DNA from: Acetobacterium sp. KB-1
GTDB lineage: Bacteria; Bacillota; Clostridia; Eubacteriales; Eubacteriaceae
Assembly (NCBI RefSeq): GCF_003260995.1
Contig: NZ_CP030040.1
Location: forward strand, 1,363,701 to 1,397,017
Reading direction: 5' to 3'
DNA length: 33,317 nt
Positions 11,955 to 28,035 of this stretch are shown here, in pieces (the first letter of the stretch is position 1; each line of letters begins with the position of its first letter). The notes beneath the pieces were generated by a model, which did no database searches, was not told the DNA's origin, and saw nothing but the letters and a program-made list of their open reading frames with translations. The position numbers and the translations under genes were made by a program.

Positions 11955-12719
11955 TTAACGCTCACCGAGCTTTTTCAGCCGGGTTTCTTTTTTATTAATA
12001 TGGACGATCTTGGTTTTAAGTGATTTTAGTTCCAAGGAATTATCACGCTGGTCTTCCCAGACTGGCCAGTTTTTATTGGCTTCAATTAAATTGATGATTT
12101 CTTCGGTCAGCCAGGGGTTACAAACCAGAACCGGACCCAAGGTATTGGTAAACATACCCTTGCCGCTGATAACACCTTCAAAGCGGGTCTCGCCGTTATT
12201 ACCATAACCATATTTTAACCAGCCAAAAGGCGACTCTTCTTTGATATCCAGATCCAACATCTGAATTTGACTACCGATGATGTCCATTTCTTTGCCGTTG
12301 TAGCGGCAACTGTAATAAAGATCATCTCCGTAGACGACATGATTTTCCCGTGTTTTCACCTCAATAATTCCCAATCCTCTGATCGTGGACTGATCATCGC
12401 GCTTTATTGTTTCACCGAAAAGACCCACCGAGGTGCCGGTCACCAGCATCGGCCGGGTTTCAATATAATCCATCAGTTCTTTGCGGTGCGGTTCCAGATA
12501 GGCCGCAACTGCTTCAAAATGTTCAATTTCTCCCGGTGGACAAAACAGGAAGTCAAAATCGATCGGATTAAAGGTCTCCGTATCGAGATTAATCTGTTCG
12601 ACCTCAACCCGGTAACCCCGCCGTTCCCCTTCAGCCCGAATGGCCAGCAGGTTACCCCGGTCGCCATGCAGGTTAAACATATTATTAAAAAGCCAGCCGA
12701 CTTTTATCGTCTGTTGCAT
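11955..12719 (-). CDS. GatD-like type-1 glutamine amidotransferase without its catalytic residues
   Basis: The 254-residue protein aligns along its length with GatD, the glutaminase half of lipid II isoglutaminyl synthase (for example GNLLAIR, INLD, YGYGNN). But the nucleophile motif LTICGGYQFLG of S. aureus GatD reads LVTGTSVGLFG here, putting Gly95 at the Cys position. The histidine motif LHGP reads TLGP, putting Leu194 at the His position. The conserved ENHGG stretch is absent too. It therefore should not release ammonia from glutamine. Its start is coupled to the upstream MurT-like gene by TAATG. I infer it is a structural or substrate-recognition partner of that ligase. Confidence 0.85.
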   Translation of the reverse strand: MQQTIKVGWLFNNMFNLHGDRGNLLAIRAEGERRGYRVEVEQINLDTETFNPIDFDFLFCPPGEIEHFEAVAAYLEPHRKELMDYIETRPMLVTGTSVGLFGETIKRDDQSTIRGLGIIEVKTRENHVVYGDDLYYSCRYNGKEMDIIGSQIQMLDLDIKEESPFGWLKYGYGNNGETRFEGVISGKGMFTNTLGPVLVCNPWLTEEIINLIEANKNWPVWEDQRDNSLELKSLKTKIVHINKKETRLKKLGER

Positions 12720-14071
12720 TAATTCTGTCCTCCCTCGATAAATTTTTTCATCTTTTCAAAGGTGGAAAGCCAGGTAATCAAATAAATATTATCGGTTTCG
12801 GCCTTATCAATTTCGGCGAAAATTTCGTTAATATTATCACTGTCCATGATCGTGATCGCTTCTTTGGCAACCCCATCATAAATAAGCCGATTGGCGGTAT
12901 CGTAGGAAACATGCTCAGAGAAACACAGGTATCGCTCGACATTGGAATTGACTACTGGTTTAAAATCACAGTCAAAGGCGTAAAAGGTATTGATATAATG
13001 AGGCACAAAGTCATTGACCACATACAAACCCAGGGCCACCATTTTTTCACTCTGATCAGAAGCCATAATATTTAACGCACTTTGAAGGGTATCGGGATTT
13101 TCCTGTTTAATCCGCATGTATTTAATGGTTTTGTTCTTATAGGTCAATACCTCAAAGCGGCCGCCGATGTTTTTAAAGTTTTCAAAGGCCTTGGCCGCAG
13201 CTTCTGGCGCAATCCCGCAAATTGCTTCGCAAACAGCCAGAGAACCGGCGTAATTATAAAACATGAAGGGCAGATCGTAGGGCATATGAAAGCTCACATC
13301 TTTTAACTTAAAACTTTGCTTGGAAAAATTCAGGTCAGTGATCAGATAGTCCGGTGTTTTTTTGCTGGCAAAGCCGCAAAAGTCGCAATGAAAAGGCCCG
13401 ATACTGTCCACATTGTAATAGTCAAAGCTCATATCGTGATGGCATTTGGGACACGCCTGGGTGGGATAATCCGCACCTTTGGTGAATGATTCATCATGAT
13501 GGGAAACCCCGTAATAAATCGAGCGGCAGGCGGTTTCCTCAAAAAATCGGGATCGCGGTTCTTCGTTATTGAGGATCAGTGTCATCTTGGGATTCACCAC
13601 CTCTTTTAATTTACGGATAATAAAATCCGGATCCCCATTTCTCTGGACCTGGTCTTTTTGCAAATTGGTGATCAGCATGTTTTGGGCTGGCAATTGAGCA
13701 TAAATCAAGGGCAGGTAGCGCTCATCCGTTTCAAAAATATAATAATCGGCCTTGAGTTTCCCCGATAAACTCGCTTCTTTGGCCAGAATTGTGGCAATGC
13801 CACCGAGTAAATTGGCACCTTCCAGATTCGAGACGATCTTTTTTCTGTTTTGTTTTAAAATGTGGGTAACCAGGTTAGTCGTTGACGATTTTCCATTCGT
13901 CCCCGTAATGAAAATAACCTTCGAATAGTCTATGTTTTTAAAATGTTTTACAAAATCAGGGTCGATCGTCAAAGCCTTTTCTCCGGGCAGATTGGTGCCC
14001 CGATCCTTACTGATCATGTTGATGGCCACACCCATTAATTTTGCAAACCATAATGCGAGATAAAATTTCAT
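12719..14071 (-). CDS. MurT-like Mur ligase (divergent)
   Basis: MurT is a Mur-ligase homologue that activates the alpha-carboxyl of D-Glu in lipid II. This 450-residue protein has the ATP loop GTNGKSSTT (57-65), NLEGAN, a Cys4 zinc ribbon (C207, C210, C229, C232) inserted in the central domain and a DUF1727-type C-terminal domain. It is a clear MurT relative, but the motif AADGRDTSWIYDADFE of S. aureus MurT reads VPHYINTFYAFDCDFK here. Asp349, which I recall as its proposed catalytic residue, aligns with Asn361. Together with the dead GatD-like partner this suggests a changed amine donor. An alternative is a different substrate altogether. Confidence 0.85.
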   Translation of the reverse strand: MKFYLALWFAKLMGVAINMISKDRGTNLPGEKALTIDPDFVKHFKNIDYSKVIFITGTNGKSSTTNLVTHILKQNRKKIVSNLEGANLLGGIATILAKEASLSGKLKADYYIFETDERYLPLIYAQLPAQNMLITNLQKDQVQRNGDPDFIIRKLKEVVNPKMTLILNNEEPRSRFFEETACRSIYYGVSHHDESFTKGADYPTQACPKCHHDMSFDYYNVDSIGPFHCDFCGFASKKTPDYLITDLNFSKQSFKLKDVSFHMPYDLPFMFYNYAGSLAVCEAICGIAPEAAAKAFENFKNIGGRFEVLTYKNKTIKYMRIKQENPDTLQSALNIMASDQSEKMVALGLYVVNDFVPHYINTFYAFDCDFKPVVNSNVERYLCFSEHVSYDTANRLIYDGVAKEAITIMDSDNINEIFAEIDKAETDNIYLITWLSTFEKMKKFIEGGQN

Positions 14072-20750: not shown

Positions 20751-20780
20751 AAAGCCGGAGCGTTGCTCCGGCTTTGTTTT
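20751..20780 (+). terminator. Terminator between convergent operons
   Basis: A perfect 11-bp GC-rich stem (20751-20761 with 20765-20775, AAAGCCGGAGC/GCTCCGGCTTT) has a 3-base loop and is followed by GTTTT on the plus strand. It overlaps the stop codon of the ATPase D gene, so it probably also helps to end the opposing operon. Confidence 0.85.
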
Positions 20781-21393
20781 ATCGTCTATTTTTAACCTTT
20801 TTAAGCCGGAAAAACTCTTCCCGCTCTTTTTCTTCGATGGTATCCTGAATATACTTAATTTCGTCCTTTAATCGGGGAATCTGAATCTTATCCAGGGCAT
20901 TTGCACTTTTTTGAGTCTTTCTAATTTCTAACGAAAGTTTATAGGCCGTTGTTTCAACCTGGGCCAATTGATAGGACAAAAATTTGACATCATTAAATTT
21001 TTTGATGGCAATATCCAGGGCCGGATTATTCTCATAAAATCCATAGGGAAGACTTTTTTCGTATTTTTCGGTATAAACCACCTCCGGTATATCAACCCCC
21101 ATTACCCCTTTAATTCGAATCTCAAAGGGCATTTCCGAGTTTATTGATAAGGCAAACTCTTCCAGGTGATTGAGTCCCATGCTAATGCAAACCTGTTGCA
21201 ATGCCTTATAGGCTTCCTGAAACTTCTGGTTGATCTCATTTTCAATCAACTCCGCTTCTTTAACCAATTGCATGATCTCCTGGATCAGGATGGTTCTTTT
21301 TTTATCCAAAAGATCATACCCTTTTACCGAAAAACTCATTCGACTCTTCGCTTTTATCAGGTTTGCTTTTGTTGGCGTTATTTTAATGGCCAT
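20779..21393 (-). CDS. ntpD: V/A-type ATPase subunit D (central stalk)
   Basis: Subunit D is the long coiled-coil axle that turns inside the A3B3 head. The 204-residue protein begins IKITPTKANLIKAKSRM, the conserved D signature, and ends in a helical basic segment. Both terminal thirds are predicted long helices, as expected for a rotor shaft. It is the last gene of the operon, 8 bp after the B gene; its stop lies in the terminator. Confidence 0.96.
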   Translation of the reverse strand: MAIKITPTKANLIKAKSRMSFSVKGYDLLDKKRTILIQEIMQLVKEAELIENEINQKFQEAYKALQQVCISMGLNHLEEFALSINSEMPFEIRIKGVMGVDIPEVVYTEKYEKSLPYGFYENNPALDIAIKKFNDVKFLSYQLAQVETTAYKLSLEIRKTQKSANALDKIQIPRLKDEIKYIQDTIEEKEREEFFRLKKVKNRR

Positions 21394-21401
21394 CGTCCCA
21401 C

Positions 21402-22880
21402 CTACATTTCTTTAGGGAAATATTTTTCGATGTTTTCAGGACTCAGTCGATCCAGCTCCGTCAGTGGTAATAAAGCCAGAAGTTTCCACCCCAGGTTAAG
21501 GCTTTGCATAATATTTCGACTTTCATCAAAACCCTGGTTTAGAAATTTCGCCTCAAAAGCACGTCCAAAAGCCATATATTTTTTATCAGTGGGACTTAGA
21601 TCCTCCTCACCGATAATCTGAGATAAATCCCTTACTTCCTGAACCTTGGAATAGGAAGCAAACAATTGGTTGGCAACCTCAGCATGATCTTCCCGGGTGA
21701 AACCTTCACCAACACCATCTTTCATCAGTCGGGACAGCGATGGCAAAATAGCCACCGGCGGGTAAATACTCCGCTGGAAAAGATCGCGCCCTAAAACAAC
21801 TTGCCCCTCGGTGATATATCCGGTCAGATCCGGGATCGGATGCGTTATATCATCATTTGGCATGGTCAGTATTGGTAAAAACGTAATTGAACCAACCTGG
21901 TCTTTTAACATCCCAGCTCGTTCATAAAGAGAAGCCAAATCCGAGTACATATAACCGGGATAGCCTTTACGGCTGGGAACTTCTTCACGAGCGGAGGATA
22001 TTTCCCGCAATGCCTCGCAGTAACTGGTAATATCGGTCATGACGACCAGGATATGCATATGTTTTTCAAACGCCAGATACTCGGCTGCTGTTAAAGCGCA
22101 GCGGGGCGTTGTAATCCGTTCAGCAATGGGATCATCAGCATAGTTGACAAACATTACCACCCGGTCCATGACATTGGCATCATCAAAGCTCTTCCTAAAG
22201 AATTTTTCATCATCGTGTTTAACCCCAATAGCGGCAAAAACAATCGCAAAATCTTCGTGAACATTGTCTCCTAGTCGGGCCTGCTTAACAATTTGAGCGG
22301 CCAATTCATTATGAGGTAAGCCATTACCTGAAAAAATCGGCAATTTTTGACCGCGGATCAGCGTCGCCAGAGTATCGATGGAAGAAATACCCGTCTGGAT
22401 AAAATTCCGCGGATATTCCCGGGACATCGGGTTAATGGGACGACCATTAATGTTTGCTTCAACCAAACTAAAAATGTCACTGCCATTATCAATCGGTTCA
22501 CCGATGCCATTAAAGATCCGTCCCTGTAAATCCAGGGACATCGGTTCACCGATGCCATTAAAGATCCGTCCCTGTAAATCCAGGGACATCGGTTCACCGA
22601 TGCCATTAAAGATCCGTCCCTGTAAATCCAGGGACATCGGCAAATTAAAGGATTCGCCAGTAAATTTGATAATACTGTTTCCGGCGGCCAAGCCGGCCGT
22701 ACTTTGAAAAACCTGGACGGTAACCTTTTTTTCGTCAATTTTGATGACTTTTCCCTTTTTGACTTTCCCGGTGCTGATTTCGACAATATCAACCACTTCA
22801 CCGTAGAAAACATCGTCCACATCCGAGATTTGAATCAGGGGACCAACGACTTTATCAATTTTTAAATACTCTTTTTTCAT
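21402..22880 (-). CDS. ntpB: V/A-type ATPase subunit B with a 32-residue repeat insertion
   Basis: B is the non-catalytic nucleotide-binding head subunit. Family motifs are present ([16 protein letters not shown]-type [22 protein letters not shown]). At 492 residues it is 32 longer than usual because [16 protein letters not shown] (one 16-residue block) occurs three times in a row near residues 77-124. Without two of them the length is 460, normal for the family. The block lies at the junction of the N-terminal barrel and the nucleotide domain, where extra residues would be hard to accommodate. Assembly error, a silent decay event or a tolerated expansion are all possible. Confidence 0.95.
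22492..22635. repeat. Three tandem 48-bp copies inside ntpB
   Basis: Units start at 22492, 22540 and 22588 and appear identical, so this is a recent event. Each unit carries the inverted repeat TCCCTG-TAAATC-CAGGGA, which could promote slippage or confuse assembly. The unit length is a multiple of three, so the reading frame is kept. Confidence 0.96.
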
Positions 22881-22889
22881 TGTTTCCCC

Positions 22890-24677
22890 CTAATTCTCAT
22901 ATTTTTTAAAAAGCACTTCAAAATACTGGTCGATCTCATCTTTTAGCCGATCAATCCCGCTTAAATCATCATTTGGAATGGTATACTTCATTTTTATGAA
23001 CTGTCCAAAAATATTCAGATCTTTTAGTTGCGATGTCGGTATTCCGAGTTTTAAGCCTTCCCGACCGCGTTCGTATAGATATTCAATGGCTTTTAACATC
23101 GCATACTGTTTTTCCAAGGGGACATAGGTATCATCTTTATTATAGGCGTTTTGTTGCAGATAACCGACTTTGATCAGTTTGGCAATCTCAAGAACCCAGC
23201 GCTGATCATCGGGCAGCACATCTTCCCCAACTAGCATCACCATTTCCTGGAGCTTATTTTCTTCATACATCAACTCCAGCATTTTATTTCTCAGCGAAAT
23301 GCAATCCTCGGCCACATTGTCCTCATACCAGTCCGATAGTATTTTAATATAGCCACTGTAGCTTTCCAGCCAGTTGATAGCCGGATAATGTCTAGCATAA
23401 GCAAGACTCTTATCCAGCGCCAGAAAAACATTGACAAAGCGCTTGGTGTTTTCAGTAACCGGTTCGGAGAAATCTCCTCCGGCTGGCGACACGGCACCGA
23501 TAATCGTAATTGAACCCTCATCCCCGCCCAGGGTTTCAATACTACCAGCCCGCTCGTAAAATTCAGCAATTCGGGATGGTAAATAGGCCGGATATCCTTC
23601 TTCTGCCGGCATCTCTTCCAGACGGCCGGAGATCTCGCGCAGCGCCTCCGCCCAGCGCGAAGTAGAGTCTGCCATCATTGCCACCGCGTAACCCATATCC
23701 CGATAGTATTCGGCAATGGTGATGCCAGTATAAATACTGGCCTCCCGGGCCGCTACTGGCATATTGGACGTATTGGCAATTAAAACCGTTCGCTCCATAA
23801 TCGATTTACCCGACCGGGGATCGATAAGTTTAGGAAAATCTTCAATAACTTCAGTCATTTCATTTCCCCGCTCACCGCAACCGATATAGACAATGATATC
23901 TGCATCCGACCACTTGGCCAACTGATGCTGAGTCATCGTTTTTCCGGTTCCAAATCCCCCGGGGATCGCTGCTGTTCCACCTTTGGCAATGGGGAAAAAG
24001 ATATCAATTACCCGCTGTCCAGTGATTAATGGCACCAGGGTTTCTTTTCGGTAGGCATTGGGACGAGGTGTACGAATTGGCCATTCATGGGCCATTTTTA
24101 GTTCATGAACCTGATTCTTATGATCCGAAATTCGCACCAGCACATCGTCAATGGTATAGCTGCCATTAGGGACCACCTCAATAACGGTTCCCGAAAGGTT
24201 TGGTGGCACCAGTAACCGATTTTTTATAACTTCCGTTTCCGAAACGGTGCCAAAAATACACCCCGCCGTTAACGCATCCCCCGGTTTAACACTCAAGACG
24301 GTTTCCCACAATTTTTTGTCATCAATGGATAAAAGTCCTATTCCTTCCGGAATAAAAATTGGCGAGATTTCCTGGATTTTTTCCAGGGGACGCTGGATTC
24401 CGTCAAACATGTTTTTTAACATCCCAGGACCTAAATTCAAGCTCAGTGGTCTGCCGGTGGGGTTGATTACCTCGCCAATTTTCAGCCCTTCCGTTTCCTC
24501 ATAAACCTGAATCGTGCCTATGTCACCTTCTAGAATAATCACTTCGCCAATGAGCCGTTTATCACCAACCGTGACCATTTCTCGCATTTTAAAGGTGGTC
24601 ATGTTTTTACCTTTGATAACCGGTCCATTAATCGCCGAAATCATCCCGGTAATTTTCTTTTCTTCTGTAACTGCCAC
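22890..24677 (-). CDS. ntpA: V/A-type ATPase subunit A (catalytic)
   Basis: A hydrolyses or makes ATP in the cytoplasmic head. The 595-residue protein has the P-loop [11 protein letters not shown], the [18 protein letters not shown] segment with the catalytic Glu region, [27 protein letters not shown], and the 'bulge' non-homologous region (about 110-200) that tells A from B. Length and motifs are normal. It is placed E-A-B-D as in other bacterial V/A operons, one base after the E gene. Confidence 0.98.
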
Positions 24678-25295
24678 CTAAATCACCTGCTTTTCCATAA
24701 ACCCATTAAGTGTCATTCCGATGAGTTTATAATTGCTTTTTATGAGACTTTCAACGGTAAAATCGCAATGAAGGCTGACTTCTTCATCTTCGACAATGAA
24801 TCCGCCAATACACTCCTGACAATTCTTATGATAGTTTACCGCATAACCATCTAACTGCTCGTCAATGAGGTTTTTGATTTGCTCGTAATCGCGTTCATTG
24901 ACAAAAACAACCAGTTCCTTTTTACTTTCAAATACCTGCGGTATCTGGGCGATACAATCACGCAAATAGCACTCGTAAACTTCTTCGGTCAGATACGCTC
25001 TGGCCTTTTCCCGGATAATCTGATTAAAATCCAGTAAAATGCGTTTCTTTTCTTCCAGTTCTAATGCTTTGGCTTTGTTTTTTCCTTCTGCGATAATTTT
25101 ATTTTTATCTCTGAAAATAGTATGGTAACTCCGTTCTTCAACAGACCTTTTTTCTTTTCTGATTTTTTCCCACGAGTCTTCCAATAGGGCGTCCCGCTTT
25201 TCTTTCGCTTCGTAGATGATATCTTTTCCCCATTTTCGTTCTTTACTTAAAATATATTGGGTAAACACCCGGAGTTTTTCTTCTACAGAAATCAT
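24678..25295 (-). CDS. ntpE: V/A-type ATPase subunit E (peripheral stalk)
   Basis: E pairs with the H/G-type subunit in the outer stalk that holds the head still. The 205-residue protein has a charged N-terminal helical half (KERKWGKDIIYEAKEKRDALLE and following, coiled-coil like) and a compact C-terminal domain that binds the head. Identity rests on this architecture plus its place between F and A. Confidence 0.92.
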   Translation of the reverse strand: MISVEEKLRVFTQYILSKERKWGKDIIYEAKEKRDALLEDSWEKIRKEKRSVEERSYHTIFRDKNKIIAEGKNKAKALELEEKKRILLDFNQIIREKARAYLTEEVYECYLRDCIAQIPQVFESKKELVVFVNERDYEQIKNLIDEQLDGYAVNYHKNCQECIGGFIVEDEEVSLHCDFTVESLIKSNYKLIGMTLNGFMEKQVI

Positions 25296-25307
25296 TTTAT
25301 CACATCC

Positions 25308-25610
25308 TTACAATCCCACAGACTCTTTAATATACCGTGTTATCATTCCTTCGCTTCTTTGATAACCATAACGATCCGGAATAATTGTAATTAAAGGCGT
25401 AAAATACTTCTTCTTTACTTCATTTACAGTTTCTTCCATCATCAAATATGCTTTTTCCGTCAAAAAAATAATTCCAATATCCTTGTTTTTCAAGGCTTCT
25501 TTAAAAGCCGCTTCAATATCATCTTTTGATTTTAAATAAGTCCCTTCGATACCCGCTAGTTGCATTCCCAGATAAGAGTCCCGGTTCTCACTAATCACAT
25601 AAGATTTCAT
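25308..25610 (-). CDS. ntpF: V/A-type ATPase subunit F
   Basis: F binds the D shaft and modulates activity. This 100-residue protein has the family pattern GMQLAGIEGTY, IGIIFLTEKAY and PLITIIPDRYG, a small alpha/beta fold. The start lies 2 bp from the end of the K gene. Length is typical. Confidence 0.93.
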   Translation of the reverse strand: MKSYVISENRDSYLGMQLAGIEGTYLKSKDDIEAAFKEALKNKDIGIIFLTEKAYLMMEETVNEVKKKYFTPLITIIPDRYGYQRSEGMITRYIKESVGL

Positions 25611-25612
25611 TT

Positions 25613-26053
25613 TTATAAACTTCCAATAATCATAATTGAAATGATCAGACCGTAGATTGCAACACCCTCTGCCAAGCCAACATATATAAGGGTTTTACCT
25701 AAAATTTTCTGATCTTCAGAAACGGCACCCAAGGCGGCCGAACCAACAACCCCGACTGCATAACCAGCCCCAGCACAAGCCAGCCCGGTCGATAGTGCTG
25801 CCGCGATATAACCTAAACCGGCATCTGTGATTCCACTGGATACACCGTCAGTCGCGGCTGAAACAATACTGGGAGCCATAAAAATAAGGGCCCCAGCGAG
25901 TAAAGGAATAAATGTTGACAGATTTACGCGCAAGAATTTTTTCATATTCTGACTTTTTTCATCACAATCATTATAGACAAAATAGACCCCACAAGCGATT
26001 GTTCCCAAAACTAACAGTGCTGCTCCAATTGTAATCAGAGTTAATAGATTCAT
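25613..26053 (-). CDS. ntpK: V/A-type ATPase rotor-ring subunit K
   Basis: K forms the membrane ring. The 146-residue protein has four hydrophobic segments (about 3-27, 46-66, 79-110, 118-145). Only the second hairpin carries the ion-binding carboxylate, Glu129 in VGLAEGVAIYG. The first hairpin looks like the membrane lead common in clostridial K subunits rather than a duplicated c-hairpin. The Gln and Thr/Ser ligands that I associate with Na+-binding rings are not obvious near Glu129, so the coupling ion is open. Confidence 0.93.
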   Translation of the reverse strand: MNLLTLITIGAALLVLGTIACGVYFVYNDCDEKSQNMKKFLRVNLSTFIPLLAGALIFMAPSIVSAATDGVSSGITDAGLGYIAAALSTGLACAGAGYAVGVVGSAALGAVSEDQKILGKTLIYVGLAEGVAIYGLIISIMIIGSL

Positions 26054-26064
26054 TTTAATTCTCC

Positions 26065-28035
26065 TTAATTTAGATTAATTTCCAGATCAACCGGTTTAAA
26101 CTCAATCCCGTCACCTGAATAGTATTTACTGAACAACTCATAGAATTGTAATCTTAATGCCTGAATACCAACAATTAGACCTTCCAAGGCAATGATAAAT
26201 ATATTGGCAAAGATGAGTATTCCAAAACTGATCACACCATTTTGTACCATGATGGCCAATGTCTGAAAGGCCATAAACAGACCCACATGGGTCAATGCAA
26301 AGGCACCGATTCTGATAAAGGAAAGGGTGTTGCTCAACATACCCAAAAACATTTCGAAAAGCTCAAAACCGCTCTCGACATAATACTCTGATGCCGTTTC
26401 TTCATACAAGGGCTTTTTCTTCATCAAATAGTTTGCCAAAGGCTCTCTAATTAGTACCAGAAATACCAAAAACACTGCCAGAAGAATCAACCCGGGAACT
26501 AAGATTTCCAGATGCGGAAATATTCCAAAGTTCAAACCCATAATCCCCAAGAGACTGACATATAAAGCAAAACCGCAGAGGCCGTTTTTTCCAAAAACCC
26601 CCTCTTTGATATCTTTCTTTTTAAGTTTGTTGATGATACTATAAATATAGGCAACAAAAAGCATCACAATTCCGATCAGAACGGCCGAAAGAAGGACGGT
26701 ATTAATCTCATGGAAGGGCCTTAACCAGAGCGGATGAATCACCTCTTCAAATCCAAAAATACTGCCATACATAAACCCAAAAAACGTAGAGCACATCCCT
26801 AATCGTAACAGCACTTTCCCAAGCTCTACTCCCCTTTTTCCCAGGATCCAGCCAGCGAGAGCCAAAATAAGGCCCTGGCCAACATCACCAAACATAAATC
26901 CGAAACAAAACATATAGGTTATGCTTAAAAAAGGGGTTGGGTCCAGCTCATTAAATGAGGGCACGCCATACATTTTTACTAAGGTCTCAAAGGGACGAAA
27001 AAGCCAATTATTCTTCAATTTAGTGGGTGGCTTTCCACTACCACTATTTGTATCCGAAAACATGATGATCATTTCCGGGTATTTAGCGGCGATCGCCTCC
27101 ATCCGTTTTTTATCACGTCTGGAAATCCATCCAGAAAAATAAAAATTCTCTTCACTAAAGGCCATATATTTTTTAATGATGCTCAAATTCCCATATAAAC
27201 TCAGGGTATTAAAACTCTCCGTTGCTTCTTTTTTATTTTCTTTTAAATGGGCATTCAAATCCACAAGTAACTTTGATTTTCTTTCTTTTAACACTTCAAC
27301 TTCTTGATTAATTTTTTTAAGAATGATCTTTGGTGTTTCGGTATATTCTGAACTAAACCCTTCAATGGGCTTAAAATTCAGCGCCTTTAGAATCCGCTTG
27401 GATTCAATTTCTAAATCCCTGGGGGACACAATCATAAACACTTCTTCATTGTCTACCTGATTGCCAACATGAAATACAATTGAAGTCACACTGTTATAAA
27501 TACTTTTCAAGCGGGCGGCATTATCCTTTGTAACTGATCCCATACTAAACGAAAAATTTTCGAGATGATCAAGTTCGCTCATATTAGCTTCCAGTTCATC
27601 TAAATAGCCATAAGCCGTTCTGCTTTTTTCAAGCGTTTCAAGGCGATCGTTTATTTCTTTGATCTCACCATACTCAAGGACTAAATTGTTTTCAAAAGCT
27701 TTAGCATTGGCCAACGCTTTTCCGAGATCCGTATCACCTTTCGCTAAAGACACCATATCTAAACTGAGGGATCCCTTGTAGAGTTCATTTAATTTATTTA
27801 CGGTTTTGACAAAATTCTTCTCATCCATCATGGTTTCTCCAGACACAAGCTGAGCAAACCCCAATAGTTCTCCCATGTTTTCTTCCCGAATTGGCAGAAT
27901 AAATCTACCCGAGTCAATCTCGTGCATGGCGTCCACTATTTGTATGTCATTGAAAAGAAAAATGTCTTTGGCAAATTTGTCTACATCTTTAATTTTGCCG
28001 ACTACATCCATCATAATCACATTTTCAACTGCCAT
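26065..28035 (-). CDS. ntpI: V/A-type ATPase subunit I (membrane stator)
   Basis: Subunit I provides the ion half-channels beside the rotor and anchors the stalks. The 656-residue protein has a soluble N-terminal half with coiled-coil segments (about 1-340) and a C-terminal half with about seven membrane helices, including FGFMFGDVGQGL and LSNTLSFIRIGAFALTHVGL, where the conserved Arg of the ion path lies. Length is normal. The K gene follows 11 bp later. Confidence 0.96.
   Translation of the reverse strand: MAVENVIMMDVVGKIKDVDKFAKDIFLFNDIQIVDAMHEIDSGRFILPIREENMGELLGFAQLVSGETMMDEKNFVKTVNKLNELYKGSLSLDMVSLAKGDTDLGKALANAKAFENNLVLEYGEIKEINDRLETLEKSRTAYGYLDELEANMSELDHLENFSFSMGSVTKDNAARLKSIYNSVTSIVFHVGNQVDNEEVFMIVSPRDLEIESKRILKALNFKPIEGFSSEYTETPKIILKKINQEVEVLKERKSKLLVDLNAHLKENKKEATESFNTLSLYGNLSIIKKYMAFSEENFYFSGWISRRDKKRMEAIAAKYPEMIIMFSDTNSGSGKPPTKLKNNWLFRPFETLVKMYGVPSFNELDPTPFLSITYMFCFGFMFGDVGQGLILALAGWILGKRGVELGKVLLRLGMCSTFFGFMYGSIFGFEEVIHPLWLRPFHEINTVLLSAVLIGIVMLFVAYIYSIINKLKKKDIKEGVFGKNGLCGFALYVSLLGIMGLNFGIFPHLEILVPGLILLAVFLVFLVLIREPLANYLMKKKPLYEETASEYYVESGFELFEMFLGMLSNTLSFIRIGAFALTHVGLFMAFQTLAIMVQNGVISFGILIFANIFIIALEGLIVGIQALRLQFYELFSKYYSGDGIEFKPVDLEINLN

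Follow-up and report, generated by a model that had tools for sequence, protein, structure and literature searches.

The gene pair analysed here encodes a candidate ATP-dependent ligase which, with a probability that we put at about 0.6, modifies the alpha-carboxyl of D-Glu with a D-diamino acid (probably D-ornithine) and thereby carries out the first step in the building of the group B peptidoglycan bridge. MurT/GatD is the lipid II isoglutaminyl synthase, which amidates the alpha-carboxyl of D-Glu in lipid II; as judged from sequence, the present pair is a descendant of MurT/GatD in which the residues that make ammonia are gone throughout an entire clade, while the ATP site, the zinc ribbon and the GatD fold are kept. 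Since glutamine hydrolysis is lost and the ATP chemistry remains, the nucleophile would be either free ammonia or another amine, and a D-diamino acid is favoured because of a link to a racemase, the rebuilding of the former glutamine pocket, and the wall types of those holders of the pair that are best known. Group B walls, which occur in Acetobacterium, were first described decades ago, and their B2 bridge contains a D-diamino acid; we know of no enzyme for attaching the bridge amino acid to D-Glu in these walls. The literature searched, which covered few subscription journals, yielded neither an enzyme that attaches the bridge amino acid of group B nor a paper connecting MurT/GatD to group B walls or to ornithine racemase.

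The gene pair and its locus

The pair lies in the window, by which is meant the whole stretch of Acetobacterium sp. KB-1 DNA that was analysed (33,317 nucleotides), and comprises the following features:

12719..14071, minus strand: MurT-like ligase subunit, type 1, 450 aa
11955..12719, minus strand: GatD-like subunit, type 1, 254 aa
12717..12721, minus strand: TAATG overlap coupling the murT-like and gatD-like genes

A first-pass annotation of this DNA had described the two genes as coupled in the manner of murT-gatD, and the overlap was seen again at the position given. A search of the organism's own genome, a single contig of 3,988,268 bases, found no other MurT and no second, catalytic murT-gatD. 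The pair is flanked upstream by a potassium-channel gene and downstream by mnmA, glmM and glmS. Elsewhere in the window a run of minus-strand genes at 20779-28035 looks, by eye from its open reading frames, like a V/A-type ATPase operon.

In the MurT-like protein both Mur_ligase_M and MurT_C score above their Pfam cut-offs (MurT_C at 59.8 bits against 25), and in the GatD-like protein the CobB/CobQ-like amidotransferase domain is slightly below its own (23.6 against 27). The nearest solved proteins by sequence are, for both subunits, MurT/GatD complexes. Predicted models of the two subunits have mean pLDDT values of 94.9 and 89.0 and find their best structural matches in GatD and MurT; the GatD-like protein has the class I glutamine amidotransferase fold of the GatD kind.

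The pair resembles the characterized MurT/GatD complexes (S. aureus 6gs2/6h5e, S. pneumoniae 6fqb and S. pyogenes 9sq9) in gene order, coupling, both folds, ATP site and zinc ribbon. It differs from them in that the glutaminase Cys, His and Arg and the MurT Asp are replaced, in its link to a racemase, and in scores that are far below the NCBIfam equivalog cut-offs (60.9 bits for the GatD-like protein against a GatD cut-off of 400, and 165.6 and 145.7 bits for the MurT-like protein against a MurT cut-off of 800).

Clade-wide loss of the catalytic residues

From the loci fetched, 239 MurT-GatD gene pairs were assembled, of which 185 are distinct, and nine partnerless MurT rows were excluded. The 112 unique pairs that constitute type 1 are set apart from the other 73 by a gap in profile score, the lowest type-1 score shown being 478 bits, for a partial row, and the other 73 pairs scoring at most 304 bits.

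In the alignment the GatD-like protein has Gly95 at the site of the catalytic Cys (Cys94) and Leu194 at that of the catalytic His (His189), and it also lacks the Arg that captures glutamine (Arg128), while the MurT-like protein has Asn361 at the site of the catalytic Asp (S. aureus Asp349) and retains the P-loop (GTNGK), the Mg-binding Glu (E114) and the Cys4 zinc ribbon. The substitutions read from this single pair in the first-pass annotation, and the retention of the ATP loop and zinc ribbon beside them, are confirmed, and its claim that glutamine-amidotransferase chemistry has been lost proves true of the whole type-1 clade: Cys94, His189 and Arg128 are each present in 0/112 unique pairs, and the Asp349 site is Asn in 104 and Asp in only 2, while each of the zinc Cys residues is kept in 112/112. 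Since the identical state recurs in 112 unique pairs, an artefact of assembly or frameshift is ruled out. Among the 73 pairs outside type 1 the Cys is present in 32, and all 32 of these retain both the His and the Asp.

The consequences of such replacements are described for known enzymes: in S. aureus, changing GatD C94 to Ser or Gly abolishes catalysis in vitro (PMC6113224; C94G also in PMC6085368), as does MurT D349N (PMC6113224), and in S. pneumoniae changing the corresponding residue, Asp355, to Ala leaves activity reduced but not dead (PMC6085368). The alignment was also used to look for a catalytic Cys or His relocated within the GatD-like protein, which the first-pass annotation had recognized as fatal to its argument, and none was found: no Cys column exceeds 37/112, and the sole new conserved His, His18, aligns not with the catalytic His but with the Tyr that is reported to plug the ammonia channel of S. 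pneumoniae MurT/GatD.

The type-1 clade has acquired conserved residues of its own in both subunits. In the GatD-like proteins these are D133 (112/112), Q151 and Y170 (111/112 each) and H18 (103/112); in the MurT-like proteins they are R118, N145, P148, K343, G348 and P357 (112/112 each), together with a two-residue insertion, Q323-E324, in the KNP loop (110/112 each). All of these are rare or absent among the 32 Cys pairs, and the pattern of conservation indicates that in type 1 selection is now acting on features other than glutaminase chemistry.

Phylogeny and other Cys-less lineages

In a quick MurT tree of 73 rows, computed without bootstrap, type 1 (27 rows) forms a single clade with SH-aLRT 100 and a stem of 1.32. 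It is adjoined by a second Cys-less group, type 2, the unity of which has a support of 69. A third group, type 3 (7 rows), unlike type 1, arises within the Cys-bearing rows of an Actinomycetales-like order (named from a MAG label, Actinomycetaceae), in a nested position with supports of 96 and 100. On this tree the Cys was lost at least twice, if it was never regained. Types 2 and 3 are like type 1 in having no catalytic Cys and unlike it in that the MurT Asp349 is kept as Asp or Glu in 40/41 pairs. Type 2 has R118, E324 and K343 of MurT in common with type 1 in most rows, and it is possibly an amino-acid ligase as well.

The type-2 pairs, which are both Cys-less and His-less, were observed at loci L058-L067, L070 and L222-L247, in families of Clostridia and in the order of genome G824; they have the motifs ATGNSxExFG in GatD and SKNEN in MurT, and Asp349 is mostly retained. 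At L253:4554-6404 a type-2 pair is followed directly by a gene which looks, by eye, like a glutamine-dependent asparagine synthase. Type 3 occurs at L200/L248, L212/L249 and L260-L269 (order of G822), in about ten genomes, with the GatD motifs AVGAGAELLA or VGTGWELLSWG and with the His kept in some; its loci are, by eye, syntenic with sigA-like and parE-like genes.

Distribution of type 1

Type 1 is present in 44 of the 67 genomes of the source order and is the only MurT found in 39 of these 44. The other five (G036, G037, G315, G401 and G809) have an additional MurT, and in G036 and G037 the GatD that accompanies it has the catalytic Cys, so that a canonical pair stands beside type 1. In a sample of the class, 15/391 genomes reach 476 bits, two of which (G388 and G092) are outside the order, and in a sample of the phylum type 1 is found in 2/398, the organism's own genome and G560.

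A scan of named genomes gave at least 592 stretches, of which at least 408 were confirmed, and among the best 80 of them are A. fimetarium, E. aggregans, E. barkeri, Eubacterium minutum, Anaerofustis stercorihominis, Emergencia timonensis, Aminicella lysinilytica, Mogibacterium MAGs, and MAGs labelled Bacilli, Propionibacteriaceae and Actinomycetaceae. In all 17 genomes reached via the listed loci type 1 is present and no other MurT is found at E 1e-15. One of the genomes, G833, has two type-1 copies; tandem type-1 pairs were observed in genomes of the Mogibacterium type (L155, L166 and G833:C25). The order of one of the Bacilli MAGs has type 1 in 4/193 genomes, and that of the MAG labelled Actinomycetaceae in 1/297, the one being that MAG itself. 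In this Actinomycetales-like order the type-3 profile finds any match at E 1e-25 in 69/248 genomes. One paper states that murTgatD is universal in Actinobacteria, but this is not borne out by the counts of 1/297 and 69/248 at the thresholds used.

Association with ornithine racemase

Clustering covered the genes no more than 9.5 kb away at 87 type-1 loci, including two duplicate pairs of loci. The neighbour with the most constant position is an ornithine racemase (Orr) gene directly downstream of the GatD-like gene. It stands there in 13 of the 112 unique type-1 pairs, with a gap of -40 to +82 nt, and is divergent at about 200 nt beside one more, making 14 linked pairs; the downstream DNA extends for 300 nt or more in 102 of the 112, and no Orr adjoins 88 of these 102, the window's own pair included. 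No Orr was found, with a neighbour profile built from the type-1 neighbours themselves, beside the pairs outside type 1 whose downstream DNA is equally long (37 Cys-less and 11 with the Cys), nor, in a further difference from type 1, at the nine type-2 loci with long flanks that were examined. NCBIfam names the neighbour Orr (NF040742) in 7/7 cases scanned, at 287 to 457 bits, and since all seven are below the 480-bit cut-off the ornithine specificity of this putative Orr is graded as likely. The pairs adjoined by Orr include those of two MAGs labelled Actinobacteria (L153 and L172), and at L163 the four genes murE, murT-like, gatD-like and orr follow one another with overlaps.

At five loci (L170, L184, L218, L220 and L171) a gene of the alanine-racemase family lies directly upstream of the MurT-like gene, as confirmed by NCBIfam alr in two of them (L184 and L170). 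The first, second, third and fourth of the five belong to the Bacilli order. The four genomes with such loci that were tested (G824, G825, G1197 and G1266) have no Orr match, and to judge from these neighbours the donor may differ there. Other recurrent neighbours, namely CarD-like genes (11 loci), potassium-channel genes (8) and ABC-type ATPase genes in scattered positions (14), gave no functional clue.

The association extends beyond adjacency when Orr is sought across whole genomes at a threshold of E 1e-30. Within the source order Orr is present in 41/44 type-1 genomes against 4/23 others (Fisher p 4e-10), or by genus in 13/14 against 2/12 (p 1e-4), and outside the order in 12/18 type-1 genomes against 6 of 62 hand-picked others (p 3e-6), all three p values ignoring shared ancestry. 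Of the 62 comparison genomes, 20 carry Cys-less pairs resembling type 2, 2 carry Cys pairs, 22 have a MurT with an unread GatD, and 18 gave no MurT match. Exceptions occur in both directions: type 1 is without an Orr match in G036, G037 and G821 within the order and in G824, G825, G834, G835, G1197 and G1266 outside it, and Orr is found without type 1 in G008, G039, G811 and G812 within the order and in G135, G040, G059, G061, G070 and G103 outside it. The curated 480 bits are exceeded by Orr in 4 of the 67 genomes of the order, the organism's own scoring 402.9. This own orr lies away from the pair (G000:C1:999028-1000128), adjoining genes that by eye resemble leuS and a dehydrogenase gene. 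Orr enzymes can also function in the fermentation of amino acids.

Wall type of the organisms that hold type 1

The MurE motif DNPR corresponds to diaminopimelate and DNPA to a different residue. In the best MurE match of each of 30 genomes, the organism's own motif is DNPA, as is that of G017, G023, G029 and G811, while DNPR is found in G560, G069, G178, G262, G092, G817, G102 and G829, an unusual DNSR at the diamino-acid site in G030, G031, G034 and G036 (L299, L304, L300 and L305), and other forms in the remaining 13. As a proxy for wall type the motif gives a mixed picture, type-1 holders having DNPA as well as DNPR, the latter in G560, G092 and G829 (Anaerofustis). In G092 orr adjoins the type-1 pair (L090) and the MurE motif is DNPR; if the D-ornithine reading is true, the wall of this organism is of a kind not known to us.

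For most of the named type-1 holders no published peptidoglycan structure was found. A review lists Eubacterium in its Table 1 with B2-alpha beside several A types (PMC11382707). The first-pass view of the host as a group B organism is upheld to the extent that B2-alpha is listed for Eubacterium and that type 1 is present in E. barkeri, E. aggregans and A. fimetarium, and the organism's own MurE, with DNPA in place of DNPR, fits it; the tie between type 1 and such walls is weakened by the holders with a DNPR MurE. The further expectation that Cys-less pairs track group B walls is not supported as it stands, the two additional Cys-less lineages making the trait wider than group B explains, and the count of 1/297 in the Actinomycetales-like order gives no support to type 1 as the general group B enzyme. 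Since some holders have a DNPR MurE and the count is so low in this order, type 1 appears to be neither confined to group B walls nor general for them.

Proposed function and alternatives

The pair would act as a two-subunit ligase of the Mur type. The MurT-like subunit would still phosphorylate the alpha-carboxyl of the stem-peptide D-Glu, on lipid I or II in the manner of MurT; what was once the glutamine pocket of the GatD-like subunit, with its gate to MurT (His18, D133 and Q151), would take a D-diamino acid, most likely D-ornithine and possibly D-lysine, supplied by the Orr-family racemase. The amine of this donor would attack the acyl phosphate, giving D-Glu with D-Orn on its alpha-carboxyl, the bond with which the group B (B2-type) bridge begins in Acetobacterium and Eubacterium. 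Such an enzyme would be like MurC-F in its Mur ligase middle domain, in its ATP chemistry and in adding an amino acid to a carboxyl, and unlike them in needing a GatD-like partner and in having the D-Glu alpha-carboxyl as its acceptor; MurT is also described as being without the UDP-binding N-terminal domain that MurC-F have (PMC6113224).

The proposal that an amino acid rather than ammonia is joined to D-Glu had been made in the first-pass annotation, and it stands in so far as an ornithine racemase linked to the pair is in keeping with an amino acid as donor; its connection with group B is weakened by the type-1 holders that have a DNPR MurE and by the 1/297. The pair could alternatively be an ammonia-dependent amidase which makes D-isoglutamine from free ammonia with the GatD-like protein as scaffold and channel only, a function for which the retained fold and ATP site would suffice and which has a precedent in S. 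aureus MurT/GatD, reported to use ammonia at pH 8.5 with GatD still required. This we consider unlikely, as it leaves unexplained both the linked racemases and the new residues that mark the pocket and gate throughout the clade. We consider it equally unlikely that the enzyme ligates some other amino acid (glycine, serine or an L-amino acid) to the alpha-carboxyl, the racemase link being a metabolic coincidence or a feature of part of the clade. The absence of Orr beside most type-1 pairs and from 6/18 type-1 genomes outside the order would fit such an enzyme, as would the alanine-racemase-family gene found instead at some loci, which implies that donors may vary within the clade; against it are the near-constancy of Orr in the type-1 genomes of the order (41/44) and its recurrence as a neighbour in the two Actinobacteria-labelled MAGs.

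An enzyme that acts on another acceptor carboxyl, such as that of the position-3 residue, or on another polymer, whether as ligase or as amidase, is improbable. The MurT ligase core is retained, and type 1 is the only MurT found in 39/44 type-1 genomes of the order, although the coexistence of canonical and type-1 pairs in G036 and G037 implies that the two need not compete for one site, and the MurE motifs of the holders vary widely. Least probable is a non-catalytic relic or regulator, which would account for the lost catalytic residues but not for the conservation of the P-loop, Glu and zinc Cys, for the high confidence with which both subunits are modelled, or for how widespread the pair is.

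Returning to the D-diamino acid ligase, we tentatively extend it, at somewhat less than even odds, to an evolutionary reading in which a glutaminase subunit has been rebuilt as the amino-acid-binding half of a ligase that uses D-ornithine (a D-diamino acid) to begin the group B2 bridge, and in which the switch from ammonia to an amino acid was made more than once, by types 1 and 2 in Bacillota and by type 3 in the Actinomycetales-like order. If this reading of multiple switches is true, there would be undescribed walls with D-Orn on D-Glu in Clostridia that have a MurE of the diaminopimelate type, G092 being an example.

For the step that starts the group B bridge, the analysis puts forward a pair of genes as candidate enzyme, D-Orn or D-Lys as the donor, and a racemase as its partner. 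If true, the proposal would describe a route by which a glutamine amidotransferase becomes an amino-acid ligase, and it would aid the prediction of wall type from the genomes of uncultured gut bacteria.
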